DNA from: Niastella vici
GTDB lineage: Bacteria; Bacteroidota; Bacteroidia; Chitinophagales; Chitinophagaceae
NCBI RefSeq assembly: GCF_002077945.1
Contig: NZ_LVYD01000013.1
Coordinates: forward strand, 1-64,000
Direction: 5' to 3'
DNA length: 64,000 nt
Shown here: in pieces, positions 3,623-18,942 of the stretch
Position numbering within the stretch: the first letter of the stretch is position 1
How the letters are laid out: the number at the start of each line of letters is the position of its first letter
Notes under the pieces: model-generated
Databases searched by the model: none
Told to the model about the DNA's origin: nothing
Seen by the model: the letters and a program-made list of their open reading frames with translations, nothing else
Position numbers and translations under genes: made by a program

Positions 3623-4333
3623 CTATTTATAATTTGCAATCTCTATTAATTTTTTTACATCATATATAACAATTTTTCTTCCTTTTGTTTTCAGTATCTC
3701 TTTTTCTTTAAATTCAGAAAGGATTCGTACTATGTTTTCTTTGGCGGTGCCAACTAAGCTCGCCAGGTCCTCACGTGACAAATTTATCTCAACAGGCTCC
3801 CCAGGTTTAAAATTCGTTTTATATTTTTCCCGTAACACTATTAATTGTAGAGCTAAACGCTCTCGTACTGAACGTTGTGCAAATAAAGTCATACCATTTG
3901 CCAAAACTGTAAATTCGTGACTAAGTGTCTTTAATAATCGACGACTTAAAATATTTGAGCGTTGCAATACTTCGAAAAAATCTTCTTTAGGGATGAATCC
4001 AACAACACTTTCCTCTAAAGCAGCTGCAGAATCAGGAAAGCGTTCCTCCGACAACACGGCATGATACCCTATCAATTCGCCAGAATTGGCTACATATATG
4101 ATTTGTTCGCCTCCATCTATCAATTTGTATTTTTTTACTTTTCCCTCTTTGATATAAAAAATGCCGGTTGGATATCCCCCTTCCCTAAAAATCACCTCTC
4201 CTTTACTATATGGCTGTTCACTTTGATTGGCAGAAAGAATGGCAAAGTCCTCATCTGGCAGGTTCATGAGGATGGATTCACTTTTAAAATCCCATTTGTC
4301 TATAGGAAATAATCCTCTGATACTCATATCCAA
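3623..4333 (-). CDS. Crp/Fnr-family transcriptional regulator
   Basis: The 236-residue protein has an N-terminal cyclic-nucleotide-binding beta-roll (about residues 25-145, with GEVIFREGGYPTGIFYIKEG and the later GELIGYH turn) and a C-terminal winged helix (about 165-232) whose recognition segment includes SREDLASLVGTAKENIVRIL. There are no cysteines, so it cannot hold an FNR-type oxygen-sensing FeS cluster. The Arg-Ser pair used by true CRP for cAMP is not evident either, so the ligand is unknown. It is divergent from the GcvH-like gene, 95 bases apart, and is the only intact regulator in the accessory region, which makes it a candidate controller of the downstream modules. An alternative start two codons downstream (MSIRG) is possible. 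Confidence 0.9.
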   Translation of the reverse strand: MDMSIRGLFPIDKWDFKSESILMNLPDEDFAILSANQSEQPYSKGEVIFREGGYPTGIFYIKEGKVKKYKLIDGGEQIIYVANSGELIGYHAVLSEERFPDSAAALEESVVGFIPKEDFFEVLQRSNILSRRLLKTLSHEFTVLANGMTLFAQRSVRERLALQLIVLREKYKTNFKPGEPVEINLSREDLASLVGTAKENIVRILSEFKEKEILKTKGRKIVIYDVKKLIEIANYK

Positions 4334-4392
4334 AGTTACTTTTTCATAACGAAAAACTGAAAAAAGTCATTTTTTAGAATGATTTAATGGTA

Positions 4393-4423
4393 TTGTAACT
4401 CTTCGGTTTCACAAATAACTTTG
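4393..4423 (+). promoter_or_regulatory. Bacteroidota-type promoter of the GcvH-like gene
   Basis: A TTG (4393-4395) and TAACTTTG (4416-4423) are 20 bases apart, matching the -33/-7 consensus TTG...TAnnTTTG of Bacteroidota housekeeping promoters. The start codon at 4429 lies only five bases after the -7 element, so the transcript would have almost no leader. An imperfect dyad TCATT-N6-AATGA just upstream (near 4368-4383) could be a regulator site, but this is weak. Confidence 0.5.
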
Positions 4424-4428
4424 CTTTT

Positions 4429-4830
4429 ATGAGCAAATCTAAATTTGTAAAACGTGATCTGTATTACACAAATGATCACGAATGGATTGATTACCAAGGG
4501 TCTGTTGCATACGTTGGAATTTGTGAATTCAAATTAAAAGGTATAAAACAGGTTCACCAAATGCTTTTTCCAGAAATGCTGGGTGTTATGAAAAAGGGTG
4601 AGGTTATAGCCACTATTCACTATGAGGATTACAAGATTTCTATTCATATGCCGGTTGATGGAAAAATTGTCAGTATCAATGAAGCCCTGCTCCCTGAGGG
4701 CAATAATTTGTTACTTACTCAACCCGAAAATAATGGCTGGGTCGCTTTGATAGTACCAAGCCAGCCGTATGAAAGAAAAGGATTATTGCAACCCGAACAG
4801 TACAGAATATTTACTAAAAGAAAATTCTAA
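4429..4830 (+). CDS. GcvH-like lipoyl-domain protein
   Basis: A 133-residue protein resembling the glycine-cleavage H protein: YYTNDHEWI near the N terminus, then a hammerhead barrel ending in a P-V-D-G-K turn. Lys69 (motif HYEDYKISIHMPVDG) occupies the place of the lipoylated lysine, although the spacing to the conserved Pro is two residues shorter than in E. coli GcvH. No gcvT, gcvP, lipoate ligase or lplA is nearby, so this is an orphan lipoyl carrier. Comparable orphan proteins (for example the LbpA proteins of sulfur oxidation) act outside glycine cleavage. It heads the plus-strand cluster and is followed 11 bases later by a methyltransferase. Function in the cluster is unknown; lipoylation is an inference. 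Confidence 0.75.
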   Translation: MSKSKFVKRDLYYTNDHEWIDYQGSVAYVGICEFKLKGIKQVHQMLFPEMLGVMKKGEVIATIHYEDYKISIHMPVDGKIVSINEALLPEGNNLLLTQPENNGWVALIVPSQPYERKGLLQPEQYRIFTKRKF

Positions 4831-4841
4831 AGCAAAGATTC

Positions 4842-5459
4842 ATGGATTTCACAATAAATACTAGTTCAAATTCGGATACTTTGGATCACTGGTTTAACTC
4901 AGATACCCAAATACATCATTTATATCCGCAATCTATTCAATTATTGGCTGTCAGGCATTGGACGCCGTTACATATTGCCAAATTGGTATCACAATTTCTT
5001 GTTCCGAAAGAGGGTGTAAAAGTGTTGGATATTGGCAGTGGCGTAGGAAAATTTTGTTTGGCCGGAGCTTATTATAAACCCGGTGCAATTTTTTATGGAG
5101 TTGAACAGCGCAAGCATTTAGTCGCTCACGCTGAAACGGCAAGGAATATTCTTGGCTTAGGGAATGTATATTTTTTAAATCAGAATCTAACTCAACTCGA
5201 TTTTAAACAGTACGACCATTTTTATTTTTATAACTCATTTTACGAGAATCTGGCGGATACAGAAAAAATTGACAACACGATAACATGCTCGCCACAATTG
5301 TACGATTATTATAATAAACAACTTTATAAAAAACTGGAAGAAATGCCTGCAGGAACAAGGCTGGCAACTTTTCATAGCCTTGAAGGCGAAATACCATCGA
5401 GCTATCAGGTAGTTGAGGCGTATGTTGGCAAACTATTAAAATTTTGGATAAAAATATGA
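4842..5459 (+). CDS. class I SAM-dependent methyltransferase (copy A)
   Basis: The 205-residue product has the SAM-binding motif I VLDIGSGVGKFCLAG (about residues 60-74), the acidic end of strand 2 (YGVEQRKHL) and a later aromatic YFYNSFYENL in place of the usual (N/D)PPY motif, so nucleotide N-methylation is not indicated. Substrate is unknown. It has a close paralogue at 6701-7306 and a deleted copy at 5521-5866, all opening with a shared segment of the form LYPQ-x-IQLL-x3-HWTPLHI. It is probably co-transcribed with the GcvH-like gene 11 bases upstream. Confidence 0.85.
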   Translation: MDFTINTSSNSDTLDHWFNSDTQIHHLYPQSIQLLAVRHWTPLHIAKLVSQFLVPKEGVKVLDIGSGVGKFCLAGAYYKPGAIFYGVEQRKHLVAHAETARNILGLGNVYFLNQNLTQLDFKQYDHFYFYNSFYENLADTEKIDNTITCSPQLYDYYNKQLYKKLEEMPAGTRLATFHSLEGEIPSSYQVVEAYVGKLLKFWIKI

Positions 5460-5520
5460 AGGGAGGAATCTACTAACATTTGCATTTAATGCCCGTTATT
5501 TTCAGTAAGGAAACCATTTT

Positions 5521-5866
5521 ATGAACTCTGAAGCTGCTTCAAGACTGTATTTAGACAACTGGTTTAGCTCAGACGCTCAATTTCATAACCTATACCCTCA
5601 GGGTATTCAATTATTATCAGGGCAGCACTGGACTCCCTTGCATATTGTCCAAATGGTAGTAGAATTTTTAACCTCTGAAGAAGATGTTAATGTGCTGGAT
5701 CTAGGAAGTGGCGTAGGAAAATTTAGTTTAGCCGCATCAACTTGAACAACTGCCAATTGGAACAAGATTGGCAACCTTTCATAGCCTGGATGGTGAAGTG
5801 CCGTCTAGCTATCATTTAGTAGAAGCAAAAGCCGATACTTCATTAAAGTTTTGGATGAAAATATGA
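5521..5866 (+). pseudogene. methyltransferase copy B with a large internal deletion
   Basis: The first 74 codons match copy A up to motif I (LDLGSGVGKFSLAA). The frame then closes, and the downstream bases in another frame read LPIGTRLATFHSLDGEVPSS through FWMKI and TGA at 5864-5866, matching the C-terminal 40 residues of copy A. Roughly 90 codons, including the rest of the SAM fold, are missing and the junction is out of frame. This is a dead duplicate. Its intact N-terminal frame (5521-5745) should not be annotated as a functional gene. Confidence 0.85.
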
Positions 5867-5885
5867 TTAACCAAACGACCAAATA

Positions 5886-6188
5886 ATGCCAATAAACTTT
5901 GAAAACGAAATTAGTGAAATATCCAATCATCTGAAAAAAGTGGAGGGTTATTTAGCCTGCGAAAAGATAATTGTTAGAAACATAGAAAAGCATTTGTACA
6001 AGGGATGCGATGAATTGAATATAGAACAATATCTAAAACAAACTTCCACATATATGGAAGATGTAATTGCTTCAAAACAAGGCGACATAGATTATATCAA
6101 TTTTAAATATGCGAGCGGATTTATCAACGAACTTTTAAAAACACCCAAGTGGAATAACTGGATAAAACTATATGATCTGAAATTTTAA
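5886..6188 (+). CDS. small conserved protein of unknown function (paralogue 1)
   Basis: A 100-residue soluble protein, mostly predicted helical and charged, with no known motif that I recognise. It is clearly paralogous to the product of 7326-7622. Shared features are the MPINF start, LKK-EG followed by ACE, an N-I-x-KH segment, GC-EL, and a C-terminal segment (Y-FINxLLxxP-xxNWxK). Each copy follows a methyltransferase, so the pair looks like a duplicated two-gene unit and the two products may act together. Nothing suggests export. Confidence 0.7.
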   Translation: MPINFENEISEISNHLKKVEGYLACEKIIVRNIEKHLYKGCDELNIEQYLKQTSTYMEDVIASKQGDIDYINFKYASGFINELLKTPKWNNWIKLYDLKF

Positions 6189-6193
6189 AGTAG

Positions 6194-6676
6194 ATGAATA
6201 GCATACTCGAAGCAAAAATTATGCATGTAGATAAAAAATATAATCGACCTAGTTATGTACAGGGCTTGTTAACACATAGGTGTTCGCGATGCAGAAAAGG
6301 CGGAATGTTTCAGGTAAATAATTCCTGCAATCTGAAGAAATTCATGAAAATGAATGATAAATGCCCTGTTTGTAACCAGATTTTCGAATTAGAAGTAGGA
6401 TTTTATTATGGAACCGCATATGTGAGTTATGCACTAACAGTTGCTCTATCAGTAACCTCTTTTGTTGCCTGGTGGGTATTAATAGGAATGTCGGTAAATG
6501 ACAATAGATTTTTTTGGTGGTTGGGGTTTAATATAATTCTGTTAATAGTACTTCAACCTTATTTAATGCGCTTGTCAAGAGCAATATGGCTGTCATTTTT
6601 TGTTCGTTATAATACAAATTGGGAAGCTGAAAAACCTGAAGATCCCGAGATTGATGAAATAAAGGTGAATGATTAA
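6194..6676 (+). CDS. DUF983 family membrane protein
   Basis: A 160-residue protein with two CxxC pairs before the membrane part (HRCSRCRKG and DKCPVCNQIF, within about residues 28-65), the signature of DUF983, likely a zinc knuckle. Two to three hydrophobic helices follow (about 75-100 and 110-130), then a charged tail. DUF983 proteins are inner-membrane proteins of unknown function. It lies between the two methyltransferase/small-protein units with five bases to the previous gene, so it is probably in the same operon. Confidence 0.85.
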   Translation: MNSILEAKIMHVDKKYNRPSYVQGLLTHRCSRCRKGGMFQVNNSCNLKKFMKMNDKCPVCNQIFELEVGFYYGTAYVSYALTVALSVTSFVAWWVLIGMSVNDNRFFWWLGFNIILLIVLQPYLMRLSRAIWLSFFVRYNTNWEAEKPEDPEIDEIKVND

Positions 6677-6700
6677 TTAAAGATTGTAAACTACATTAAT

Positions 6701-7306
6701 ATGCCTTTTGTTCCTACTTCTCGATACCTTGACCATATTTTCAAAAGCGAGCAAAGTTTTTGCCAATTATTTCCAGAATCAATTCAACAGCTCGACAAAC
6801 AGCATTGGTCACCATTAAATATAATTTATAAAGCTGTAACATTTCTTTCAAACAAAAAACAGGCAAGAATACTTGATATTGGAAGTGGTTCAGGAAAATT
6901 TTGTTTAGCTGGTGCTTATTATAATCCATTAGCTTTTTTTTATGGCGTAGAACAAAGGCAAAGTTTAATAGAACAAGCTCAATCAGCTAAGGAGAAGTTA
7001 GGAATATCTAATGTGGAATTTATATACAGAAACTTCACGCAGCTGGATTTAAAAGAATTTGAGGGGTTTTATTTTTATAATTCTTTTTTTGAAAATCTTC
7101 CAGGTACAGATAAAATTGATGACAGTATAGCTTATACATCCGAATTGTATCATTATTATAGTATCTATTTAAATAAGCAATTGGATACAATGCCTCCAGG
7201 CACAAAAGTGGCGACCTACTGTAGTTGGGATGATGAGATACCACCGGGTTATCAAAAGGTCGAAGCACATGCCAATGGATTATTAAAACTTTGGATAAAA
7301 ATGTGA
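6701..7306 (+). CDS. class I SAM-dependent methyltransferase (copy C)
   Basis: The 201-residue paralogue of copy A has ILDIGSGSGKFCLAG as motif I (about residues 58-72), YGVEQRQSLIEQ at strand 2 and YFYNSFFENL at strand 4. Identity to copy A is visible along the whole length, including the C-terminal KLWIKM/KFWIKI end. It is intact, so with copy B broken the cluster retains two functional members. Substrate is unknown. Confidence 0.85.
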   Translation: MPFVPTSRYLDHIFKSEQSFCQLFPESIQQLDKQHWSPLNIIYKAVTFLSNKKQARILDIGSGSGKFCLAGAYYNPLAFFYGVEQRQSLIEQAQSAKEKLGISNVEFIYRNFTQLDLKEFEGFYFYNSFFENLPGTDKIDDSIAYTSELYHYYSIYLNKQLDTMPPGTKVATYCSWDDEIPPGYQKVEAHANGLLKLWIKM

Positions 7307-7325
7307 ATGTAAAAGTTAAAGAAAT

Positions 7326-7622
7326 ATGCCTATTAACTTTTATTATGAAATGCAGCAAATTGTGCATTACCTCAAAAAGGCGGAAGGAAATAAAGCTTGT
7401 GAAGCAGTGGTTGTTAGCAATATCAGAAAGCATTTTGAGCAAGGGTGTAGTGAATTAGTCCTTGAAACCTACCTTAAAGAATTAATCAAACATCTTGGTT
7501 TATTAATTGAATCAAATAAAGGAACACTCATTGGCGCTAATTATAAGTATGCTTACGGTTTTATAAACACCCTTTTGGAAATGCCATCCGTCAAAAACTG
7601 GGTAAAGACAACTGGGCTTTAA
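7326..7622 (+). CDS. small conserved protein of unknown function (paralogue 2)
   Basis: A 98-residue paralogue of the product at 5886-6188, with the same MPINF start, LKKAEGNKACE, NIRKHFEQGCSEL and C-terminal YAYGFINTLLEMP segments. It starts 19 bases after methyltransferase copy C. No membrane segment, signal or catalytic motif is visible. The repeated pairing with a methyltransferase is the main clue to its role. Confidence 0.7.
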   Translation: MPINFYYEMQQIVHYLKKAEGNKACEAVVVSNIRKHFEQGCSELVLETYLKELIKHLGLLIESNKGTLIGANYKYAYGFINTLLEMPSVKNWVKTTGL

Positions 7623-7681
7623 GTTTAGAAGGCTTACAAAAAAGGAGCATTGAATTTTAATTTTAAAAACAGATTATTCTT

Positions 7682-7960
7682 ATGCCACTTACTATTGATG
7701 AATACCGATGTAAGCTTATTACTAAAATTTTATTTGCCCAATCTCCGGATGAAGTTACACGCTTTATAGACGTTGCTATGAAGAGTCTGAAAGATCACAA
7801 AGTTAATGGCTACATTATTACCAGATTTGTGACAAAAACAATTCATCATTTAGGAGAATTTAGTCCAATAGATCATAATGCGCAGCAATGGACTAATATT
7901 AAATTGGCAAGGAAACAATTTGATTACATCAGGCAACAAATCAATGTTACTGCCAAATAA
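7682..7960 (+). CDS. small hypothetical protein
   Basis: A 92-residue, probably helical soluble protein (start MPLTIDEYRCKL). Size and position suggest a distant relative of the two preceding small proteins, but I cannot align it convincingly. It is the last gene before the hydrogenase-4-like operon, 96 bases upstream of it. I do not recognise a family. Confidence 0.55.
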   Translation: MPLTIDEYRCKLITKILFAQSPDEVTRFIDVAMKSLKDHKVNGYIITRFVTKTIHHLGEFSPIDHNAQQWTNIKLARKQFDYIRQQINVTAK

Positions 7961-8056: not shown

Positions 8057-10054
8057 ATGACTGAATCATTGTTTTTTATATCCATTTTATTGCTGGTGGC
8101 TGGGATTATTTCTATTCCGTTATTGCCACATTACCTGAGAGCAAGAGTTAATTTTATTTTTGTTTTCTTAATAGCCATCGCCTCTTGCGTTCCTGCGGTG
8201 AAGGTACTTTCGGGAGATTGTATTGATATTATCACTTGTAAAACCAATGTATTTGGTAATATTATTTTTCATTTAGACAGGCTGTCTTCATGGTTTATTC
8301 TTATCATCAATTTAACGTGCATTAATGGTGCGTTTTACGGTATAGGATACATGCAGCCGTATCATCAGCAACGATCAAATCTTTCCATGCATTGGATGTT
8401 ATATTTATTGTTTCAGTCTTCAATGCTTTGGGTATGCATGGCGCAGAATGGGTTAGCATTTCTGATCGTTTGGGAATTAATGTCCCTGTCATCCTTTTTG
8501 CTTGTCATCTTTGAACATCAGAATAAATCTACACTCAAGGCAGGAATAAATTACCTTGTACAAATGCACATCGGTGTGCTTTTCCTGACGACTGCTTTTA
8601 TTTGGGTTTATTTTTCGGAAGGCTCTTTTGAATTTAGTTCCATTAAAAACTTCTTTTCATCTCATTCAAACCTTGGGCTGTTCCTTTTATTCTTTATTGG
8701 CTTTGGCATAAAAGCAGAATTTATTCCCTTACATTCATGGTTGCCACAAGCACACCCCGCAGCCCCTTCGCATATCTCTGGTGTTATGTCAGGGGTTATA
8801 GTTAAGTTGGGGATTTATGGAATATTCAGGATTGTGCTTTTGCTAAGGCAGGATTTTACGATCATTGGAGAAATTGTTATTGTTATTTCAGTGCTTACCG
8901 GCCTTTATGGGGTTTTAAATGCAGCAGTACTTCGGGATTATAAGAGAATGCTTGCTTATTGTACTATTGAAAACATAGGTATTATTGGTATTGGCATCGG
9001 GCTTGGATTGATAGGAATGGGTAATGGGAATATGCTGTTACAAATCTTAGGGTTTACAGCGGCACTTTTACATACACTGAATCATTCGCTTTTTAAATCA
9101 TTGCTTTTTTTTAATGCAGGTTTCGTTCATCAGCAGACGCAGACAACGGATATGGAGAAACTCGGTGGATTGATTCATACTATGCCACAATCAGCCATGT
9201 TATTCTTAATGGGGGCACTAGCCATTAGCGGCCTTCCTCCTTTCAACGGGTTTGTATCAGAATTTCTTTTATACAGTAGCCTTATAACAGGAATTAATTC
9301 CATCGGCAATACTTACGTGATCCTGATGGTATCTTCTTTGACAGGGTTGGCAATTATCGGTGGAATCTCCATGCTTACTTTCACAAAAAGTTTTGGAACA
9401 ATATTTCTAGGTGTTCCTCGTACTTATTTTCATCAGCGTCCCAGGGAGGCCGGTTGGATTATGCGGTTACCACAGTACTTCATTTTAGCAATTATGCTTT
9501 CAATAGGATTGTTGCCACAATTATATTTATCAATTGTACAGGGAATCGTTTCAAGTTTTACACCATCAGTTACTTCAATAAATGAAGTAATGCCAGCATC
9601 ATTACTTGGTAGTATATCGGCTATTGGAAAGTTTACCTTGTTATTCATTTTGTTATTGATTTTAATATATTTTATAAGAACAAGGGTTACGCGAAGCCAT
9701 CCTGTTTCCGTAGATTCAACCTGGCGCTGCGGATATACTGCGCCTTCCCCAAGGATGCAGTACTCAGGTAAATCCTATTCAAATTCTCTTGGAAAACTGC
9801 TTAGCTTTGTTGTAATAGAAAAGAAAAAGTATAAAAAAATTCAGGTAAATGAAATATTTCCTGCAGAAAGAAAATACTCATCAAATTACAACGATTTTTT
9901 TATGACAAGAATCTTCAACCGCACCGTTAGCCAGCTTCTGTACTTTCTGGATTATTTTCAGTTCATTCAAAACGGAAAGATCCAATCATATATCCTGTAT
10001 GGTATTTTTTTTATTGTTCTTGTGTTTTTAGGAACGATTTTTAATATTATCTAA
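8057..10054 (+). CDS. HyfB-like proton-translocating antiporter-type subunit (first copy)
   Basis: A 665-residue polytopic membrane protein of the NuoL/M/N-MrpA/D family, closest in layout to HyfB/HycC of hydrogenase-4 and formate hydrogenlyase. The proton-channel residues are present: the TM5 Glu in IVWELMSLSSF, the TM7 Lys in GFGIKAEFIPLHSWLP and the TM8 Lys in GVIVKLGIYGI. After about 14 helices comes the HyfB-type C-terminal extension with the motif STWRCGYTAPSPRMQYS. It should form one of the ion-pumping half-channels of a complex I-like membrane arm. It overlaps the next gene by one base (TAATG), indicating translational coupling. Confidence 0.9.
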   Translation: MTESLFFISILLLVAGIISIPLLPHYLRARVNFIFVFLIAIASCVPAVKVLSGDCIDIITCKTNVFGNIIFHLDRLSSWFILIINLTCINGAFYGIGYMQPYHQQRSNLSMHWMLYLLFQSSMLWVCMAQNGLAFLIVWELMSLSSFLLVIFEHQNKSTLKAGINYLVQMHIGVLFLTTAFIWVYFSEGSFEFSSIKNFFSSHSNLGLFLLFFIGFGIKAEFIPLHSWLPQAHPAAPSHISGVMSGVIVKLGIYGIFRIVLLLRQDFTIIGEIVIVISVLTGLYGVLNAAVLRDYKRMLAYCTIENIGIIGIGIGLGLIGMGNGNMLLQILGFTAALLHTLNHSLFKSLLFFNAGFVHQQTQTTDMEKLGGLIHTMPQSAMLFLMGALAISGLPPFNGFVSEFLLYSSLITGINSIGNTYVILMVSSLTGLAIIGGISMLTFTKSFGTIFLGVPRTYFHQRPREAGWIMRLPQYFILAIMLSIGLLPQLYLSIVQGIVSSFTPSVTSINEVMPASLLGSISAIGKFTLLFILLLILIYFIRTRVTRSHPVSVDSTWRCGYTAPSPRMQYSGKSYSNSLGKLLSFVVIEKKKYKKIQVNEIFPAERKYSSNYNDFFMTRIFNRTVSQLLYFLDYFQFIQNGKIQSYILYGIFFIVLVFLGTIFNII

Positions 10055-12072
10055 TGGAAATTATTACAGCGTTCATATTAACTACCTTGTTAAGCATCCT
10101 GCTTGTTCCATTTATAAATGTCAGATGGAAGGGTTTAGTTACTGTAATGACTGTAGTTTTACTCGCTATTTTAAGTAGTATTATAGCGATTGAGGCAATG
10201 CATGGAAAACAAATTGAATATTTCTTTAGGGGCTCATCAGTTACCGGAAAAATTCCTTTGAGGGCTGATGCTTTGTCAGGTTTCTTTATCCTGATTATCA
10301 ATTTCACTTTTCTCACGGGCGCTTTATATGGCTTGCAGTATATGAAAGTTTACCGGGATCAGAAAGCCAATCTCTCACTTCATTGTATCAGCTTTATACT
10401 TCTTCAGGCAAGTCTTAACAGCATTTGTTCATTACAAAACACTATTGTATTTCTTATTGCCTGGGAAATAATGGCTTTATCATCTTTTATGTTGATCATT
10501 TTTGAGCATAATAAAAGGGAGACGTTAAATGCAGGAATAAACTTTTTAATCCAGTCGCATATCTGCATTATGTTTTTGATGCTTGGTTTTATATGGGTAG
10601 CGTTAAAAATGGATTCATTTGATTTCAGAGCTATTACCGTTTACTCCACAAATAATCCGTTACTCGCCGGTGTTGTTTTATTCTTTTGTTTCTTCATCGG
10701 ATTTGCCATAAAAGCAGGATTTGTTCCTTTCCATACCTGGCTGCCCTATGCGCATCCGGCAGCCCCTTCTCATGTATCGGGTGTAATGTCGGGAGTGATT
10801 ATTAAAATTGGCATCTATGGAATTTTGAGAATGCTATTACAAATAAAAAGCGATTACCTGGTAATCGGCTATATAATTCTGTTTATTTCACTCCTCACTG
10901 GAATTTATGGAGTGATGCTTGCCATCATTCAACACAACTTAAAACGGTTACTTGCTTATAGCAGTATTGAAAATATCGGTATCATTGGAATAGGAATAAG
11001 TCTGGGATGTATAGGAATAGGAAAAGGAAATAATATCTTATCCATCGTTGGATTTACGGGTGCATTGCTGCATACGTTAAACCACTCTCTTTTTAAATCA
11101 CTTTTATTTTATTGCGCTGGTAATGTATACCAGGCTGCTCACACTATGGATATTGAAAAGTTGGGCGGTATGGGTAAACAAATGTCTCATACTACCTTTT
11201 TATTTTTAATTGCTTCTCTTGCTATCTGTGGACTACCCCCTTTCAATGGATTTGTTTCTGAATTTCTAATTTACAATGGTCTGTTTACCGGACTGCGTGG
11301 TTCCGACAAAGTTTTACTTTCATGGATAGTATGCGGACTTTTTGGATTGGCATTAATCGGTGGATTAGCCATGTTATGTTTTACAAAAGCTTTCGGTTCG
11401 GTCTTTTTAGGTACGGCCCGCCACCATTTTCACCAAACTCCCAAAGAAGCTGTTATAGGGAAATTGATCCCAATGTATGGCATAGTTTTGTTAATAATAG
11501 CAATTGGCTTGTTCCCTAAATTTATTATTACTGCTTTTTCTAAACCGGTTTCTTTATTTGCTGTCAATCATTTTCCGTCAAGCCATCTACCTGCAGGGGA
11601 TGCCCTGTCAATAATTGGTTTATGTTCAGCAGCTTTCATTTTATTGGCTGGACTGATATATTTGATAAGGAAAAGAATGACAGCAAATAGATCGGTTGAA
11701 TTCAATGCAACCTGGGGTTGCGGGTATGTTGGTTCAACTGAAAAAATGCAGTATACAGCCGGTTCCTTTGTTCGTGCTTACCGCAAATTGGCAGAGCCAC
11801 TTTTTTCCATTTATAAAAAGAAAAAAGAAATAGAAGGTGTATTTCCTCAGAATGGGCAGCAAGAAACACATCCCTATGACAAAGCAGAAGAATGGTTGAT
11901 TGATTATCCCTTGCGGGTGTTAAAGGGATTCTTTAATAAATTTATTTTTTTGCAAAATGGCAATCTACAGTTTTACATATTATACGGTGTTGTTTTTATC
12001 ACGTTGATGCTGGGAATTCCTTTTTTGGTTGAATATTTAAAAGCGTTATTTCAATTTTTAAACAAGCTCTGA
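10054..12072 (+). CDS. HyfB-like antiporter-type subunit (second copy)
   Basis: A 672-residue paralogue of the preceding subunit with the same architecture: IAWEIMALSSF (TM5 Glu), GFAIKAGFVPFHTWLP (TM7 Lys), GVIIKIGIYGI (TM8 Lys) and the C-terminal WGCGYVGSTEKMQYTA extension. Tandem HyfB-type subunits mean the complex has at least three antiporter-like units once the HyfF-like subunit is counted. The two copies are well diverged, so the duplication is old. It overlaps the first copy by one base and is followed three bases later by the NuoH-like gene. Confidence 0.9.
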   Translation: MEIITAFILTTLLSILLVPFINVRWKGLVTVMTVVLLAILSSIIAIEAMHGKQIEYFFRGSSVTGKIPLRADALSGFFILIINFTFLTGALYGLQYMKVYRDQKANLSLHCISFILLQASLNSICSLQNTIVFLIAWEIMALSSFMLIIFEHNKRETLNAGINFLIQSHICIMFLMLGFIWVALKMDSFDFRAITVYSTNNPLLAGVVLFFCFFIGFAIKAGFVPFHTWLPYAHPAAPSHVSGVMSGVIIKIGIYGILRMLLQIKSDYLVIGYIILFISLLTGIYGVMLAIIQHNLKRLLAYSSIENIGIIGIGISLGCIGIGKGNNILSIVGFTGALLHTLNHSLFKSLLFYCAGNVYQAAHTMDIEKLGGMGKQMSHTTFLFLIASLAICGLPPFNGFVSEFLIYNGLFTGLRGSDKVLLSWIVCGLFGLALIGGLAMLCFTKAFGSVFLGTARHHFHQTPKEAVIGKLIPMYGIVLLIIAIGLFPKFIITAFSKPVSLFAVNHFPSSHLPAGDALSIIGLCSAAFILLAGLIYLIRKRMTANRSVEFNATWGCGYVGSTEKMQYTAGSFVRAYRKLAEPLFSIYKKKKEIEGVFPQNGQQETHPYDKAEEWLIDYPLRVLKGFFNKFIFLQNGNLQFYILYGVVFITLMLGIPFLVEYLKALFQFLNKL

Positions 12073-12075
12073 AGG

Positions 12076-12981
12076 ATGATAAGTTTTATTTTAATAATTA
12101 TCACAAGCCTGTTCTTCGGTGGAATCATTATTCGGACAAAAAGTATTACTTCCGGTCGTAAAGGCCCTGGTATTTTCCAACCGATAAAAGATATAATTCG
12201 TCTGTTAAAAAAAGGCTCTGTGTATAGCAAAACCACCAGTTTTATTTTTCAGATTGCACCCAGCATATATATTACCTCTGTTATCATGGCTATCATGATC
12301 ATTCCTTTCGGCGGATACAAAGGAATAATATCGTTTAAAGGAGATTTTGTATTTTTTGCTTATGTGTTGGGGGTAGGTAAGTTTTTCAATATTATCTCTG
12401 CATTAGATACTGGCAGTAGCTTTGAAGGAATGGGGGCAAGCAGGGAAGCATTATTTTCTATGTTTGCAGAACCTGCTTTTTTTATATTGATGGGTTCCTT
12501 AACCCTTCTCACAGGTCATACTTCCTTTCAACAAATATTTGCTTCACTGCATTTTGGTTCTTATATATCCTACATTCTCGGCGTTTTAGCCACCTTTGTA
12601 CTGGTCATGATTACAATGGTGGAAAACAGTCGTATGCCGATTGACGACCCTACAACTCACCTTGAACTTACAATGATCCATGAAGTAATGATACTTGATA
12701 ATAGTGGTTTCGACCTGGGAATGATTTTATATGCTACTAACTTGAAATTTGCCATGTACGGCGCTTTAATTGCAAACTTGTTTATGGGTACTTTTCCTTT
12801 GTATCTTACTATACCCATATTTTTCGGAATGCAGATGCTTTTTGCAATAGCTATCGGATTACTTGAGTCTTTTACGGCAAGATTCCGGATGAATCATAAT
12901 GCCCAATATATACTGGCACTATCATCGGTTTCCCTATTGATTTTCTTAGGGGTACTATTGATTTTAGGTCAATTCAGCTAA
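12076..12981 (+). CDS. HyfC/HycD-like (NuoH-type) membrane anchor subunit
   Basis: A 301-residue membrane protein of the NuoH/HycD family, which joins the hydrophilic arm to the membrane arm and forms the first ion-entry path. The conserved polar loop is present (ENSRMPIDDPTTHLELTMIH), as are the N-terminal GPGIFQPIKD segment and GSSFEGMGASREA, the usual contact with the large and small subunits. About eight helices are expected. Retention of the interface loop despite loss of redox ligands in the soluble subunits argues that the assembled complex is still selected for. Confidence 0.9.
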   Translation: MISFILIIITSLFFGGIIIRTKSITSGRKGPGIFQPIKDIIRLLKKGSVYSKTTSFIFQIAPSIYITSVIMAIMIIPFGGYKGIISFKGDFVFFAYVLGVGKFFNIISALDTGSSFEGMGASREALFSMFAEPAFFILMGSLTLLTGHTSFQQIFASLHFGSYISYILGVLATFVLVMITMVENSRMPIDDPTTHLELTMIHEVMILDNSGFDLGMILYATNLKFAMYGALIANLFMGTFPLYLTIPIFFGMQMLFAIAIGLLESFTARFRMNHNAQYILALSSVSLLIFLGVLLILGQFS

Positions 12982-13009
12982 CAACCAAAATAACAAGTCA
13001 ATAATAATA

Positions 13010-13639
13010 ATGACAAACGTATTACTGATAATATTTACCATTTCACTGTTATACCTAAGTATAGCCCATCGATTGATTACTTACATAAAAATCCTCGCAT
13101 TTCAGGGCGTATTGCTTTTTGGTATCGCTTTTATTGAGTTAATCGAAATTAATGCAATCAACCTCACTTTTGTACTTTTTGAAACAATTGCAGTAAAGGC
13201 AATTGTTATTCCTTTATTTATGAACTATACCATGAAAAGGAATAGAATAACCCGTGATGCAGAACCTTTTGTTCCCAACTTTGTATCGCTAATCATCATT
13301 ACACTTATTATCATTGCTACTTTCGTTTTATCCAATTCTATCACTGATACCCGCATTAGTAAAATATATTTTGTGGTAGCTCTTTCAACGCTATTTGCAG
13401 GATTATATATTATTGTTACAAGAAGTAAAATAATCACTCACATCATAGGGTATCTCGTCATCGAAAACGGAGTGTTTATTTTATCGGTGGCTCTGGGAAA
13501 TGAAATGCCTGTGCTGGTAAACCTGGGTATTTTGCTTGACATTTTCGCCAGCATTTTTTTACTGGGAGTTTTTGCGAACAGGATTGGTGATGTACTGAAA
13601 GATGTTGATGTTGACCAATTAAAAAATCTGAAAGATTAA
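13010..13639 (+). CDS. HyfE-like membrane subunit (NuoK-like C-terminal part)
   Basis: A 209-residue protein with about six transmembrane helices, the size and position of hydrogenase-4 component E. The C-terminal half carries a NuoK-like pair of acidic helices (GYLVIENGVFILSVA with a membrane Glu, then NLGILLDIFASIFLLGVF with a membrane Asp). In complex I the equivalent acids belong to the central hydrophilic axis. The gene is 28 bases after the NuoH-like gene and 9 bases before the HyfF-like gene. Confidence 0.85.
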   Translation: MTNVLLIIFTISLLYLSIAHRLITYIKILAFQGVLLFGIAFIELIEINAINLTFVLFETIAVKAIVIPLFMNYTMKRNRITRDAEPFVPNFVSLIIITLIIIATFVLSNSITDTRISKIYFVVALSTLFAGLYIIVTRSKIITHIIGYLVIENGVFILSVALGNEMPVLVNLGILLDIFASIFLLGVFANRIGDVLKDVDVDQLKNLKD

Positions 13640-13648
13640 TATCAAAGT

Positions 13649-15076
13649 ATGACCGGAATATATTTATCATGTGCATTTTTAATAAGTGGATTATTGCTTT
13701 TTAACAGGAACCGGGCGTTAAAAAATATGCTCGTAATAGCGTTTGTACTATTGCAGATTGGGTTTACAATTTATGAATATCTGCATATCAATACAATTGA
13801 ATTAACTTATTTCACGGCTGACTCATTGGGGGTGCTCCTTCTTATAACATTGTGCATTATCAGCATCCCGGCTTTTTACCACAGTTATGTTTATTTGGGA
13901 ACAAAGCAGGATAACCCCAAACATACTGCTATCTATTTTGCTGCGATGATTGCCTTATTAACTTCAATAAGCGCTGCTTATCTTTCCAACCATATCGCCG
14001 TTACCTGGATTTTTGTTGAATTAACCACGCTAAGTGCCTCTGCACTAATTTATCACCGCAGGAATAACCGTTCCCTGGAAGGTACCTGGAAATACGTTTT
14101 TGTTTGTGCCATCAGTATTACGCTTGTTTTCATTGGCATATTGTTTTTAAGTTTTTCTTTACCGAAGGCAGGTACTGATGATCTTTCTTTTTCGAACCTT
14201 TTGAATAAAGCTCGGGAACTAAATGCATTCTGGCTTAGATTGGCTTTCATTTTCATCTTTACAGGATTCACTGCCAAGTTAGGGTTGGTTCCTATGTACA
14301 CTGCTGGCATAGATGCAAAGGATAAGGCCCCGTCTCCTGCCGGTGCATTACTCTCCAGTGTTTTGATGAATGTCGGTTTCGTTGGTATTTTTCGTTCTTA
14401 TATAGTGACTGTAAATTCCTCTATTCACCAATGGGCGAGTCATGTGATAATCATCGCGGCCCTGCTTTCCATTTTTGTAGCAACCGTTTACATGACAAAG
14501 GTCAAAAATATTAAAAGAATGTTTGCCTATTCCAGTATTGAACATGCAGGCATAATTATGCTAGGTCTTGCAGCAGGAGGAGTAGGGAATTATGCAGCTA
14601 TACTGCATATTGTATTACATTCTTTCATTAAGTCAAGCCTTTTCTTCCAGCAAGGTCAGATCTATCGCATTTATCAAAGCAAGAGCATCTATGATGCAGG
14701 CAACTATTTTAAATATAATGTTACGGGGTCAATTGTTATGCTGCTGGCTTTCTTTTTTGCAACAGCCATGCCGCCGTCGGGTTTATTCATTAGCGAGTTT
14801 ATGATTTTTCGCTCCTTGTTTGAATCAAATTATTTGTGGATACTAATTGTTGTAATGTTCCTGTTGACAATTATCATTTGGTCTTTTGGTAAAAATATAT
14901 TTAAACTTCTTTTCACACCTGCTGTTGATTTTAAGGAAGAAGGCGTTAAAAAAATAAACCCGTTTGAATCTCTTTCTCAATTCATTTTACTTGGGCTGGT
15001 TGTTTACCTGGGATTAATTCCGCCGCAACAGTTTGTAACATTAATTCAGGAAACTATAAAAAATATACCGCATTAA
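13649..15076 (+). CDS. HyfF-like antiporter-type subunit
   Basis: A 475-residue NuoN/HyfF-type protein with about 14 helices. The TM5 Glu (FVELTTLSASAL) and the TM7 Lys (TGFTAKLGLVPMYTAGIDAK) are kept. At the TM8 position the usual Lys is Asn (SSVLMNVGFVGIF), a difference from the two HyfB-like subunits that could weaken its own channel. It is third in the row of antiporter-like subunits and ends one base before the large-subunit start codon. Confidence 0.88.
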   Translation: MTGIYLSCAFLISGLLLFNRNRALKNMLVIAFVLLQIGFTIYEYLHINTIELTYFTADSLGVLLLITLCIISIPAFYHSYVYLGTKQDNPKHTAIYFAAMIALLTSISAAYLSNHIAVTWIFVELTTLSASALIYHRRNNRSLEGTWKYVFVCAISITLVFIGILFLSFSLPKAGTDDLSFSNLLNKARELNAFWLRLAFIFIFTGFTAKLGLVPMYTAGIDAKDKAPSPAGALLSSVLMNVGFVGIFRSYIVTVNSSIHQWASHVIIIAALLSIFVATVYMTKVKNIKRMFAYSSIEHAGIIMLGLAAGGVGNYAAILHIVLHSFIKSSLFFQQGQIYRIYQSKSIYDAGNYFKYNVTGSIVMLLAFFFATAMPPSGLFISEFMIFRSLFESNYLWILIVVMFLLTIIIWSFGKNIFKLLFTPAVDFKEEGVKKINPFESLSQFILLGLVVYLGLIPPQQFVTLIQETIKNIPH

Positions 15077-15077
15077 T

Positions 15078-16577
15078 ATGAGTTATATAAGTATAGGAAA
15101 TAATGAAACTATTCGTATCTCCGCTATCCCGGAATTATCTTATTCCTCATTCCTGGAGTTCAATGTATCCTCGATGATAAAAGCAAATAGTTCTCATTGT
15201 GTAAATTATTTTGGATATCCTTACAAAGGTAAGATCAAATTAATCTGCTGTATCGCGAATGACGACTTACATACAATAAATATTTCATCAAGTATAGTGG
15301 ATAGCCAGGCTCAGCTTCCTTCTTTTACAAAGCATAATCTTGCATTCGAAAAATATGAAAGGGAAATTCATGAAAATTTTGGAACACAATATGTAGACCA
15401 TCCCTGGTTAAAACCCGTACGATTTCCCTTCAACCGGTTTAACAAAAGCCTGAGAGTAGCAGACTATCCTTTTTTCAAAATTGAGAGCGAGGAATTACAC
15501 GAAGTGGGTGTGGGCCCCATACATGCGGGTATTATTGAGCCGGGCCATTTCCGTTTTATCTGCAATGGCGAACAGATTCTTCACCTGGAGATACAATTAG
15601 GTTACCAGCACAGGGGAATTGAGCGATTATTCCTTGAAAGAAAAAAATTGCTGCAACGTACGACTTTGGCTGAAAATATTGCAGGTGATTCCGTAGCGTC
15701 GCATGGGGTTGCCTTTGTAAACCTTTGGGAAAGTTTATGCAACTATCATGCAGACAGGGATTTGCAATTGGCCAGAACCATTGCTCTGGAATTAGAACGA
15801 ATTGCTATTCACACCGGTGATTTAAGCGCAATGTGTACCGATGTCGGTTATCAACTCGGCAGCGCAGTATTTGGCAGATTGAGAACACCGGTTATTAACT
15901 ATTTTCAAAAATGGTGTGGCAACCGTTTGGCGAAAGGATTGATCCGCGCTGGTAAAAATAATTACCCGCTTACTGAAGCATTAATGGGGGAGCTTACTCA
16001 ACTACTGGACGACTATGAAAAAGATTTCGAAGAAATCGCTGAAGAGCAATTTAGTTTGCCAAGTGTATTAGCTCGCTTTGAAAAAACAGGAGTTGTAACG
16101 GCAGAGCAAGCAGCTATGATTGGAACGGTTGGCATGTCGGCTAGAATGAGTGGGATTAAAAGGGATATCCGTTCTTCACATCCTCATGATTTATATTATG
16201 AGTTACAACATCAGCCGGTAATTAAGAAGCAAGGCGATGTTTACTCTAGAGCACGGATGCGGAAGAAAGAAATCAATCAATCTATTGAATATGTAAGAGA
16301 GCTAATCCAAGACATACCGATGGGCAAGCATAGAATTGGTCTTTCTGGATATCCTGCACCAGATTCATTCGCTATTTCATTAGTAGAAGGCTGGAGAGGT
16401 GAAATTTGCCATTGTGCTGTTACAGATGAAATAGGTGAATTGGTGCATTATAAAATAAAAGATCCATCGTTTCATAATTGGCTGGCAACAGCATTGGCCG
16501 TTCGGAATAATGAAATCTCTGATTTCCCTATTTGCAACAAAAGCTTTGATCTGTCTTATTGTGGTCATGATCTATAA
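15078..16577 (+). CDS. HyfG-like large subunit lacking all NiFe-ligand cysteines
   Basis: A 499-residue protein with an N-terminal NuoC/30-kDa-like domain (about 1-120) fused to a NuoD/hydrogenase-large-subunit domain (about 140-499), the arrangement of HyfG/HycE. In catalytic NiFe enzymes two CxxC motifs hold the metal. Here the first reads E-N-I-A-G-D-S (Ala202 and Ser205 in place of Cys), and the C-terminal one reads F-D-L-S-Y-C-G-H-D-L (Ser493 and Gly496 in place of Cys; Cys495 is one residue off). The protein also ends there, without a maturation-protease tail. It therefore cannot bind NiFe and belongs with energy-converting hydrogenase-related (Ehr) proteins. The HRGIER segment near 178-183 is kept. 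A quinone-reduction role like NuoD is possible only if an electron path exists. Confidence 0.88.
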   Translation: MSYISIGNNETIRISAIPELSYSSFLEFNVSSMIKANSSHCVNYFGYPYKGKIKLICCIANDDLHTINISSSIVDSQAQLPSFTKHNLAFEKYEREIHENFGTQYVDHPWLKPVRFPFNRFNKSLRVADYPFFKIESEELHEVGVGPIHAGIIEPGHFRFICNGEQILHLEIQLGYQHRGIERLFLERKKLLQRTTLAENIAGDSVASHGVAFVNLWESLCNYHADRDLQLARTIALELERIAIHTGDLSAMCTDVGYQLGSAVFGRLRTPVINYFQKWCGNRLAKGLIRAGKNNYPLTEALMGELTQLLDDYEKDFEEIAEEQFSLPSVLARFEKTGVVTAEQAAMIGTVGMSARMSGIKRDIRSSHPHDLYYELQHQPVIKKQGDVYSRARMRKKEINQSIEYVRELIQDIPMGKHRIGLSGYPAPDSFAISLVEGWRGEICHCAVTDEIGELVHYKIKDPSFHNWLATALAVRNNEISDFPICNKSFDLSYCGHDL

Positions 16578-16594
16578 AACTAAAACAGGCAAAA

Positions 16595-17347
16595 ATGTTA
16601 GATAATCTTAAAATACTGTTTCATCAGGGCAGACAATACATTCCTGATGTGACCGCTGCACAAGTTCCAGGTATATTCAAAGGCAGACCGGTAATCAGTT
16701 CTGAAATAATTAATGAAGCTGAGCTGGCAGAAATTTGCCCAACAAACGCTATCTCGACAGCCCCTGTTTGCATTGACTTGGGAAAATGTACCTTTTGTGG
16801 AGAGTGTGCCTTTGCGTTTCCAGGTAAAATAAAATTTACAACAGATTATAGAATCGCTACCAATGACCGTGGGAGGCTTGTGATAATGGAAGGAAGTGAT
16901 AAACCCGTTGAGTTGAATCCAGAACTGATAAGAAAGGAAATTTCTAAATATTTCAGTGGCTCTTTAAAATTACGACAGGTATCAGCAGGTGGCGATAATA
17001 GCTGCGAATTGGAATTGAATGCCTGTGGAAATGTAAATTTTGATATGGGAAGGTTCGGTATTGAATTTGTAGCCTCGCCACGTCACGCAGATGGAATTGT
17101 AATTACAGGGCCTATAACAGAAAATATGGCCCAGTCATTACAGATTTGTTATGATGCAATACCTGCCCCCAAAATCATCATACTTGCAGGAATTGATGCT
17201 ATAAGCGGAGGCATATTTGAAGGCAGTCTTGCGTTAAACAGAAGTTTTTTGTCGAAATATAAAATTGATTTGTATGTACCCGGCAATCCTATACATCCTC
17301 TGACATTTATAAATGGAGTGCTTGAACTTATAAGAAAGAAAAAATGA
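16595..17347 (+). CDS. HyfI/NuoB-like small subunit with ferredoxin domain and degraded proximal cluster site
   Basis: A 250-residue fusion. Residues about 40-90 are ferredoxin-like with EICPTN and the motif C65-T-F-C68-G-E-C71; the usual fourth Cys after it is Phe (AFAFP), but Cys48 could complete one [4Fe-4S] cluster. Residues about 125-250 are the NuoB/HyfI fold (RFGIEFVASPRHADGIVITGP is diagnostic in part). The four proximal-cluster ligand positions read Asp134, Cys137, Asp201 and Asn231, so a normal N2-type cluster is unlikely. The gene overlaps the next by four bases (ATGA). Confidence 0.85.
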   Translation: MLDNLKILFHQGRQYIPDVTAAQVPGIFKGRPVISSEIINEAELAEICPTNAISTAPVCIDLGKCTFCGECAFAFPGKIKFTTDYRIATNDRGRLVIMEGSDKPVELNPELIRKEISKYFSGSLKLRQVSAGGDNSCELELNACGNVNFDMGRFGIEFVASPRHADGIVITGPITENMAQSLQICYDAIPAPKIIILAGIDAISGGIFEGSLALNRSFLSKYKIDLYVPGNPIHPLTFINGVLELIRKKK

Positions 17348-17907
17348 ACAATGTTGGCAATCATACTGAAAAAATAACCGGAATAATACAAGATATTCTC
17401 ATAGCTATTTTGATAGCCATTCCTTTCATTTTTATTGGATTTTCTACAGCTTTATTTGTTGGAGCGATAGTCGCCTCGATCCTTTTGATGCGAAGGACAA
17501 TAAAAAATTTAAATCCAGGGCACATTAATGGATATAGAATTTTAAATAAGGGAAATGAATTAACCGTTCCGCCAAGAGTTGAGGTATTCGAAATTAGCAA
17601 TTCAGCAACTTTCGAAATTCTATACAAATATGTAGAGGTATTGAAAATGATGACCATACGACCAAGTATCCTTATTATACGTCTTAACCGAATCTGGCAT
17701 ATTCATTCCAATGACGCTGATATACTCAGCAAAGTAATAACTAATCTGTATGTAGGAAAGATTAAAATTTGTTTATCAGATGTAGATATAAATCTTGAAC
17801 GGCAGTTAAATACATATAACCTCCTACAAAAGATTGGAAAGGACTTTGTTTTCTGTTCGATTGATGATGCGATAAGATATGCTGAAAAAAGTTTCGATAA
17901 CCACTAA
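17344..17907 (+). CDS. SulP-type C-terminal membrane segment plus STAS domain protein
   Basis: A 187-residue protein with two closely packed hydrophobic segments (about residues 18-52, ending ASILLMRRT as at the end of SulP/SLC26 transporters) followed by a STAS domain (about 70-185: PPRVEVFEI, then IRPSILIIRL, then a conserved-strand ISKVITNL/CLSDVDI region). SulP proteins carry sulfate, bicarbonate or other anions, but the transport core is absent here, so this is a stand-alone tail. Translational coupling to the small-subunit gene (ATGA overlap) suggests it is a dedicated part or regulator of the complex. STAS domains commonly bind nucleotides or partner proteins. Confidence 0.75.
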   Translation: MNNVGNHTEKITGIIQDILIAILIAIPFIFIGFSTALFVGAIVASILLMRRTIKNLNPGHINGYRILNKGNELTVPPRVEVFEISNSATFEILYKYVEVLKMMTIRPSILIIRLNRIWHIHSNDADILSKVITNLYVGKIKICLSDVDINLERQLNTYNLLQKIGKDFVFCSIDDAIRYAEKSFDNH

Positions 17908-18342: not shown

Positions 18343-18942
18343 ATGAAAGATAAATGTAACCTGTTATACATAGAAATGCAGAAAGGTATTAACCGTTGTT
18401 TACAACTACCATTGCCTGAGATTGAACAATTAGAATGTTGTTGCCGGATTTGTATAAATTATTGGGACCAATTAAAAGCATGGATAAGGGTAAATAATCA
18501 CATAATTGAAAATAGAAAAATAGATTTTTTCAAAAATTGTAAACCTAAATTTACCGGGTTGATTGAATACTATATGCAACGTTGCCAGGCTATATTATTC
18601 CTGCCACAAGATAACAAAGAAGAAAAAATTCAATTTTGGCAAAGAGAGTTAACCAAGATTAAGCATTTTTTCAATGAACATAAAGAGTTTTGTGAATATT
18701 ATATCAAAGGGGACACAGATAGAGATTATATTTATTTTATGAATAATGATAGTAAGGAAGGTTATCACAAAAAAAGAATATATACTTCGGATAAACAAAC
18801 CTCATCACCCTATGATTATCTGACAGCTACCTTACTTGCATATCAGCAATATGAAATATACGTTAGTGATCAATTGAAAATTTTGGATGATGCTGGGAAC
18901 GACTTGGCCAACGAACAAATGAACAGCATACAGAAGAATTAG
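18343..18942 (+). CDS. RteC-family protein, probably truncated at the C terminus
   Basis: A 199-residue protein. Its central part, EYYIKGDTDRDYIYFMNND followed by TSSPYDYLTATLLAYQQYEIY, matches the core RteC pattern (YY-x-G-x2-x-D-x2-YF and TSxDYxxAxxLAxxxxxxY). RteC is a regulator of excision and transfer in Bacteroides conjugative transposons, and relatives are spread through Bacteroidota mobile elements. The C-terminal helical DNA-binding part I would expect after this core (WTxSK-x-LxELIYAL) is absent, so it may be inactive or a short variant. It is a mobile-element marker next to the tRNA-Asn gene. Confidence 0.65.
   Translation: MKDKCNLLYIEMQKGINRCLQLPLPEIEQLECCCRICINYWDQLKAWIRVNNHIIENRKIDFFKNCKPKFTGLIEYYMQRCQAILFLPQDNKEEKIQFWQRELTKIKHFFNEHKEFCEYYIKGDTDRDYIYFMNNDSKEGYHKKRIYTSDKQTSSPYDYLTATLLAYQQYEIYVSDQLKILDDAGNDLANEQMNSIQKN

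Follow-up and report, generated by a model that had tools for sequence, protein, structure and literature searches.

A clade of Ehr-type membrane complexes, represented in Niastella vici, with predicted ion channels retained and three of four proximal [4Fe-4S] ligands replaced

The window analysed here, a stretch of 64,000 nucleotides from Niastella vici (NCBI RefSeq assembly GCF_002077945.1, contig NZ_LVYD01000013.1, positions 1 to 64,000 of the forward strand), carries at 8057-17907 a hydrogenase-4/complex I-like operon of eight intact plus-strand genes, as read from the list of open reading frames (ORFs) and in agreement with family scans. The encoded complex is of the energy-converting hydrogenase-related (Ehr) type. 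In its small subunit (SS), the proximal [4Fe-4S] cluster, called N2 in complex I, has Asp or Asn in place of three of its four ligands, and the replacement is shared by a large clade centred on the Bacteroidota. The channel Glu and Lys residues of the membrane arm are invariant and the median ratio of nonsynonymous to synonymous substitutions (dN/dS) is 0.036-0.091; by these sequence measures the complex is therefore maintained, but electrons have lost their usual way into its core.

Ehr complexes are defined by having lost the NiFe ligands (PMC6349859, PMC10284858). The preliminary description of this DNA had placed its emphasis on that loss, which we confirm; but NiFe cysteine loss alone is ordinary and already known as a trait of the Ehr/Hyq family, and the oddity lies in the N2 ligands. 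The state of the proximal ligands is reported for Hyq and falls outside the written Ehr definition. What is new, at the level of the predicted proteins, is the loss of three of these four ligands in a large conserved clade. Our searches of the open-licence literature showed no paper that describes loss of the proximal cluster in an Ehr complex or a complex I relative.

Results

The proximal cluster ligands of the small subunit are replaced by a conserved Asp-Cys-Asp-Asn set

The four ligand positions of the proximal cluster are occupied in the window SS by Asp134, Cys137, Asp201 and Asn231. The two Asp and the Asn fall on cluster cysteines in hidden Markov model alignments to MbhJ and HycG, and an SS misalignment concealing a shifted Cys was rejected on this ground. 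When 84,980 species genomes were scanned with an alignment of two SS sequences, 264 relatives were found, of which the best 80 were analysed; with the window and locus L040 they make up 82 distinct N2-less genes. Asp134 and Asn231 are present in 82/82, Asp201 in 81/82 (the remaining gene is unread there) and Cys137 in 81/82, with Asn in L067. The ligand table, which omits ORFs whose best match was an E. coli query, has 115 rows with some genes entered twice: DCDN in 81, DNDN in 1, DCXN in 1 and Cys at all four positions in the remaining 32 (duplicates included). The proximal Cys are also all present in L038, the second L039 copy, L054, L055, L056, HycG and HyfI. The peptide patterns of the scan favour the N2-less clade, so that 80/80 gives no estimate of its share among Ehr complexes. 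A sequencing error or pseudogene was rejected, given the same residues in 82 genes, the intact window frames and the low dN/dS. The defects that the preliminary description had mentioned for the SS are thus real and weightier than it said.

One ferredoxin-type motif remains in the SS. Its cysteines (Cys48, 65, 68 and 71) are retained in 82/82 genes, and the ligands of a second ferredoxin cluster are lost, with Cys at position 75 in 2/82 and the first CxxCxxC absent from the N2-less rows. We take the remaining cluster to be N6b, the neighbour of N2 by complex I numbering. The ferredoxin domain is also apparently down to one cluster in the N2-containing loci L042, L043 and L044; since L041, which is nearer to the window, has both, such loss may have occurred more than once. 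No second NuoB-like gene was found in the operon by the ORF list. Supply of N2 by a NuoB-like gene elsewhere was rejected, the three others in the genome matching weakly (E 5e-14 or worse) and sitting on contigs that bear its other NuoD-like genes. The predicted SS structure confirmed the fold, with a mean predicted local distance difference test score (pLDDT) of 78.5. SS shorter than 235 aa were left out of length-filtered comparisons.

The N2-less genes form one clade under purifying constraint

A tree of the large subunit (LS), in which the trait itself does not reside, was built with 25 of the 80 clade loci, L040 and the window as N2-less rows. All 27 fell on one side of a branch with support of 99/95 and 97% of 200 bootstraps, in a tree whose long branches to the outgroups were flagged by the program. 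L040 is the deepest branch of the clade, and the next locus outside it, L041, keeps all four proximal Cys. Median Nei-Gojobori dN/dS for close pairs was 0.081 for LS (26 pairs), 0.078 for SS (60), 0.036 for HyfC (17), 0.091 for the second HyfB (9) and 0.044 for HyfF (13). Genes for HyfB, HyfC, HyfE, HyfF, LS and SS are all complete in 54/80 loci, contig ends cutting many others; the structure alignments A3 and A4 cover 51 and 35 of the 80.

By record titles the 80 loci belong to Chitinophagaceae, Bacteroidales, Prolixibacteraceae, Flavobacteriaceae, Saprospiraceae and one Marinimicrobia metagenome-assembled genome. Most are titled metagenome assemblies; one, Flavihumibacter profundi KCTC 62290, bears the title of a culture-collection strain. 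Among 395 sampled genomes of the phylum, 17 had an Ehr-level LS match and two of these, the window's own and G066, were of the Asp/Asp/Asn kind. In a plasmid collection 100 records matched the LS, with 30.9-39.9% identity among the 20 listed; two of these records were examined more closely.

The large subunit lacks the NiFe site and the quinone residues

Both CxxC motifs that bind NiFe in group 4 hydrogenases are absent from the LS. Alignment with E. coli HyfG and HycE, together with the codons, bore out the residues that the preliminary description had given for the four cysteine positions, namely Ala202, Ser205, Ser493 and Gly496. In the 72 other clade LS (those below 480 aa were left out of the counts), position 202 is A in 60, S in 9 and T in 3; position 205 is T in 53, S in 12, A in 5 and C in 2; and positions 493 and 496 are invariably S and G. 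All four Cys are missing as well in the 20 Ehr LS of alignment A1, one of which is the window's. Two explanations that could have undone this result were not upheld. Misalignment hiding a shifted Cys was rejected, as the one candidate, Cys495, lies one residue away and is Cys in just 47/72 clade LS; sequencing errors in the motifs are excluded by the loss seen across the 20 A1 and the 72 clade LS.

The LS has no counterpart of the 32-residue tail found in HycE and HyfG: it stops at residue 499, the point at which that tail starts. Residues past L499 number 0 in 87/87 aligned Ehr LS. In hydrogenases this C-terminal tail is cut off by a maturation protease, so these LS genes would encode the mature end directly. 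Ile153 and Gly203 align with a His and a Tyr of E. coli NuoCD and are Ile and Gly in 72/72 clade LS; that this His and Tyr are the quinone-head residues follows from PMC7684303 together with the alignment. Glu154, retained in 72/72, aligns with MbhL Glu21, which the same paper names as key to proton reduction (PMC7684303). The cavity residues Asp204, Asp462, Asn487, Lys488, Ser493, Tyr494 and Asp498 are each found in 72/72.

The clade LS also has cysteines of its own. Cys444 is present in 72/72 clade LS vs 0/15 N2-containing relatives, and Cys253 in 71/72, with A, S or G in 13/15 of those relatives; L040 has both. HycE and HyfG likewise carry Cys at position 253, which is therefore not new to the superfamily. 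Further clade cysteines are at positions 41 (70/72), 57 (67/72), 58 (68/72; missing in L040) and 446 (66/72). Positions 246 and 248 also differ in the clade; they lie beside His245, which is located at N2 in complex I.

The predicted LS structure confirmed the fold (mean pLDDT 79.2), with residues 144-156 and 479-499 below 50. The nearest solved LS by both sequence and fold is that of E. coli formate hydrogenlyase (7z0s_E of 7z0s), and a sequence search of the PDB found no Ehr structure. As the models came without coordinates and the loops of the LS cavity are of low confidence, pocket geometry is argued here from homology.

The channel residues of the membrane arm are intact

Family scans and channel-residue counts agree with the full membrane set described earlier, two HyfB-like subunits and one each like HyfC, HyfE and HyfF, with Glu and Lys intact; the operon thus contains the Mrp antiporter-like membrane subunits that mark Ehr complexes. 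Among complete genes (membrane subunits below set lengths were left out), the channel Glu/Lys are invariant in 44/44 first and 50/50 second HyfB. HyfF retains its channel residues in 63/63 at three of four positions, and the fourth is Asn241 in 62/63, matching E. coli HyfF. The conserved acidic residues of HyfC are kept. Two long HyfB genes occur in 35/44 loci with enough upstream sequence; in two more the second copy is split, and seven have one. L040 and L041 have one HyfB copy, and the N2-containing L047, L052 and L053 have two.

Operon layout and genome context

The genes are tightly packed, with intergenic gaps of -4 to 28 bases (Table 1). An NADH module (NuoEFG) was not found in the operon by the ORF list.

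Table 1. Positions in the window of the operon's genes and of the residues discussed in the text.
Feature	Coordinates	Strand	Basis or remark
HyfB-like antiporter subunit 1	8057..10054	+	family scans; channel residues E140, K219, K250, E402
HyfB-like antiporter subunit 2	10054..12072	+	family scans; channel residues E138, K220, K251, E403
HyfC/NuoH-like coupling subunit	12076..12981	+	conserved acidic residues retained
HyfE-like membrane subunit	13010..13639	+	family scan
HyfF-like antiporter subunit	13649..15076	+	E124, K210, E383
LS, NuoC + NuoD/HyfG-like fusion without NiFe ligands	15078..16577	+	
LS codons 202-205 (A-G-D-S), first ex-CxxC	15681..15692	+	
LS codons 493-496 (S-Y-C-G), second ex-CxxC	16554..16565	+	
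LS Cys253	15834..15836	+	Cys in 71/72 clade LS
LS Cys444	16407..16409	+	Cys in 72/72 clade LS, 0/15 N2-containing relatives
SS, ferredoxin-like domain fused to NuoB/HycG-like domain	16595..17347	+	
SS Cys48 ... Cys65, Cys68, Cys71, sole remaining [4Fe-4S] motif	16736..16807	+	82/82 genes
SS Asp134 ... Cys137, ligand positions 1 and 2 of ex-proximal (N2) cluster	16994..17005	+	
SS Asp201, ligand position 3 of ex-N2 cluster	17195..17197	+	
SS Asn231, ligand position 4 of ex-N2 cluster	17285..17287	+	
Membrane-tethered STAS fragment, resembling the C-terminal end of SulP transporters	17344..17907	+	4-base overlap with SS stop

No match to HypC or to the NiFe large-subunit family PF00374 was found in the genome, the same searches being positive in 4/14 and 5/14 control genomes, respectively. 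Among the 80 loci, many of them cut by contig ends, no partner oxidoreductase recurs beside the operon. A constant partner enzyme was rejected, the commonest neighbours being a Crp-type regulator (10/80 loci) and methyltransferases (8/80; 11 in a looser list). The STAS fragment adjoins the SS in the window and in 3/80 clade loci (L070, L077 and L095), some loci having little or no downstream sequence, and a full-length SulP-like transporter gene lies upstream of the N2-containing Ehr operons L048, L049, L050 and L051. A SulP/bicarbonate link was rejected, as these occurrences are too rare to support a mechanism.

The G+C content is 0.368 in the operon and 0.344 in the upstream block 3623-7960, vs 0.448 for 19500-64000. 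The block holds a divergent Crp-type regulator, a GcvH-like protein, two related methyltransferases, small proteins of ~100 aa in related copies and a DUF983 protein, and pieces of it are also found next to the operon elsewhere in the clade, for instance at L058 and L087. Directly after the operon, at 18343-18942, lies an RteC-family gene with a G+C of 0.307; genes of this family are linked to conjugative transposons. The operon may lie on or beside a mobile element. Across 58 related genomes, of which nine belong to the same genus, the best LS match had an E value of 9.7e-31 and 26% identity over residues 140-491, while the main Ehr LS matches in the phylum sample ranged from 1e-77 to 1e-177; the weakness of the former suggests that the operon was acquired. 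A promoter and terminator scan of the sequence gave counts close to those of shuffled sequence.

Two other loci hold related genes side by side. Read by eye, the stretch L078:11372-20534 beside an N2-less operon encodes the large subunit of a NiFe hydrogenase, with its two CxxC motifs present, and look-alikes of hypE, D, F, B and A. On a Variovorax plasmid, L039:9845-27988 contains two different Ehr operons with ~4 kb between them and, near each, a 'fused MFS/spermidine synthase' gene.

Discussion

The absence of a NiFe site and of the quinone His/Tyr, together with intact channel residues, makes the usual H2, NADH or quinone chemistry unlikely for this predicted complex. The preliminary description had proposed a pump or antiporter powered by neither H2 nor NADH. 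That proposal is plausible, but no result shows the driving reaction. The reading we favour, with a chance just under even, is that the Ehr-type complex is a cation or proton translocator in which the binding of a ligand or proton, and not electron transfer, acts as drive or gate. In this reading the former N2 pocket (Asp134, Cys137, Asp201 and Asn231) and the former NiFe cavity (e.g., Glu154, Asp204, Lys488, Tyr494 and Asp498) would form one polar site. Binding or release of a ligand, cation or proton at this joint LS/SS site would move the coupling loops, and the membrane arm's ion movement would be driven by this motion or would itself drive it; the last ferredoxin-type cluster would be structural or would serve as a redox gate. 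Cavity, pocket and channel residues are conserved together. A fuller proposal for the clade is more tentative: its machine, a member of the complex I superfamily without the core electron route, would bind a proton, a cation or a small ligand at the conserved Asp-Cys-Asp-Asn site that took the place of N2, and the old catalytic arm would link this non-redox chemistry to ion movement. With the NiFe site, the quinone residues and the N2 Cys set all absent, electrons at the remaining cluster would have no known route to the cavity.

Several observations weigh against a non-redox translocator. The motif of the remaining cluster is retained in every one of the 82 genes, beyond what a vestige needs, and the cluster is presumably the neighbour of N2. 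The near-invariant Cys137 (81/82), with Cys253 and Cys444 of the clade LS, would suit a relocated metal centre. Deletion of Hyq in Azorhizobium alters H2 evolution and turnover although HyqG lacks both CxxC motifs, in a system whose HyqI keeps an N2-type Cys set (PMC3357923); this mutant effect warns against excluding redox chemistry in the wider family.

In the strongest rival, although a doubtful one, the complex would still work by electron transfer. The old N2 pocket would house another kind of metal centre on Asp134, Cys137, Asp201 and Asn231, either a mononuclear metal or an oddly ligated Fe-S cluster, perhaps aided by LS Cys253 and Cys444, and this centre would relay electrons from the remaining ferredoxin cluster to some substrate. 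The four SS residues are conserved together with the neighbouring [4Fe-4S] motif, and the two LS cysteines reach back to the deepest branch of the clade; but L067 has Asn137, contrary to a Cys-based centre, the Cys at 253 is shared with HycE and HyfG, and Asp and Asn are poor Fe-S ligands. An improbable alternative, drawn by analogy with MBS, is a redox enzyme whose substrate cavity reaches into the vacated N2 pocket, its substrate gaining or losing electrons at or close to the remaining ferredoxin-type cluster. The retention of that cluster's motif in 82/82 genes would fit, but all of its Cys are present, no open iron is predicted and the cluster, we assume, lies one step farther from the chamber than the proximal cluster. 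MBS of Pyrococcus furiosus, a NiFe-less relative, does chemistry on a chamber-facing cluster (PMC7684303), but there catalysis takes place on the proximal cluster, which in the window clade has lost its ligands.

Less probable still is that LS and SS, themselves devoid of binding chemistry, mainly act as a scaffold for assembly or a regulatory lid for an Mrp-like antiporter. Mrp antiporters need no redox arm to work, and here the channel residues are fully retained while the redox residues are gone; but LS and SS are constrained like the other subunits (median dN/dS 0.081 and 0.078 vs 0.036-0.091), and many LS cavity residues are invariant. We give very little credence to a hydrogenase or quinone reductase of the Hyq or complex I kind after all: the Hyq deletion phenotype (PMC3357923) speaks for it, but the ligands of both NiFe and N2 are missing, as are the quinone His and Tyr, and neither a HypC match in the genome nor an NADH module in the operon was found.

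The central open question of complex I is how distant proton pumps are driven by chemistry at N2 and in the quinone pocket. A natural relative with channel residues and a conserved LS/HyfC core, but no N2 set, quinone residues or NiFe, would show which parts are separable, and an N2-less complex could allow coupling to be studied without electron transfer. Should the Asp-Cys-Asp-Asn site hold a metal, the centre would be unlike those described for the complex I superfamily in the papers found. The presence of the culture-collection strain F. profundi KCTC 62290 among the clade records makes the hypothesis testable.

Comparison with known systems

Ehr complexes share with the window operon a group-4-hydrogenase-like LS without NiFe ligands and antiporter-like subunits, and the window clade differs in additionally lacking three of the four proximal [4Fe-4S] ligands. 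The earlier statement that complexes with such NiFe losses are known and their reaction is not agrees with the literature on Nitrospira, in which their function is described as unknown (PMC12342949, PMC10284858). Those of ammonia-oxidising archaea perhaps have another electron-transfer role (PMC10432482), and those of Margulisbacteria and relatives are suspected charge translocators (PMC6349859). The Hyq 'endo-hydrogenase' of Azorhizobium and other rhizobia has a similar fused NuoC/D-like LS without CxxC motifs and a HyqBCEFGI-type gene set; its HyqI is reported to have the N2-type Cys set, of which the window SS has one of four left, and the window operon differs further in its second HyfB and fused ferredoxin domain (PMC3357923). 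MBS is likewise NiFe-less, with coupling loops and antiporter-like subunits, but its catalytic site is a three-Cys proximal cluster, where the window SS retains one Cys, and it lacks the Glu of MbhL E21, which the window LS keeps as E154 (PMC7684303). E. coli formate hydrogenlyase and hydrogenase 4 (HycE, HyfG and HycG) provide the nearest solved LS and the same membrane subunit types, but the window lacks their NiFe ligands and 32-residue tail, and its genome lacks HypC. Respiratory complex I has a homologous core and channel residues, in contrast with a window operon that has no NADH module, N2 Cys set or quinone His/Tyr. Unlike an Mrp antiporter, the window operon contains constrained NuoB- and NuoD-like subunits, its SS and LS.

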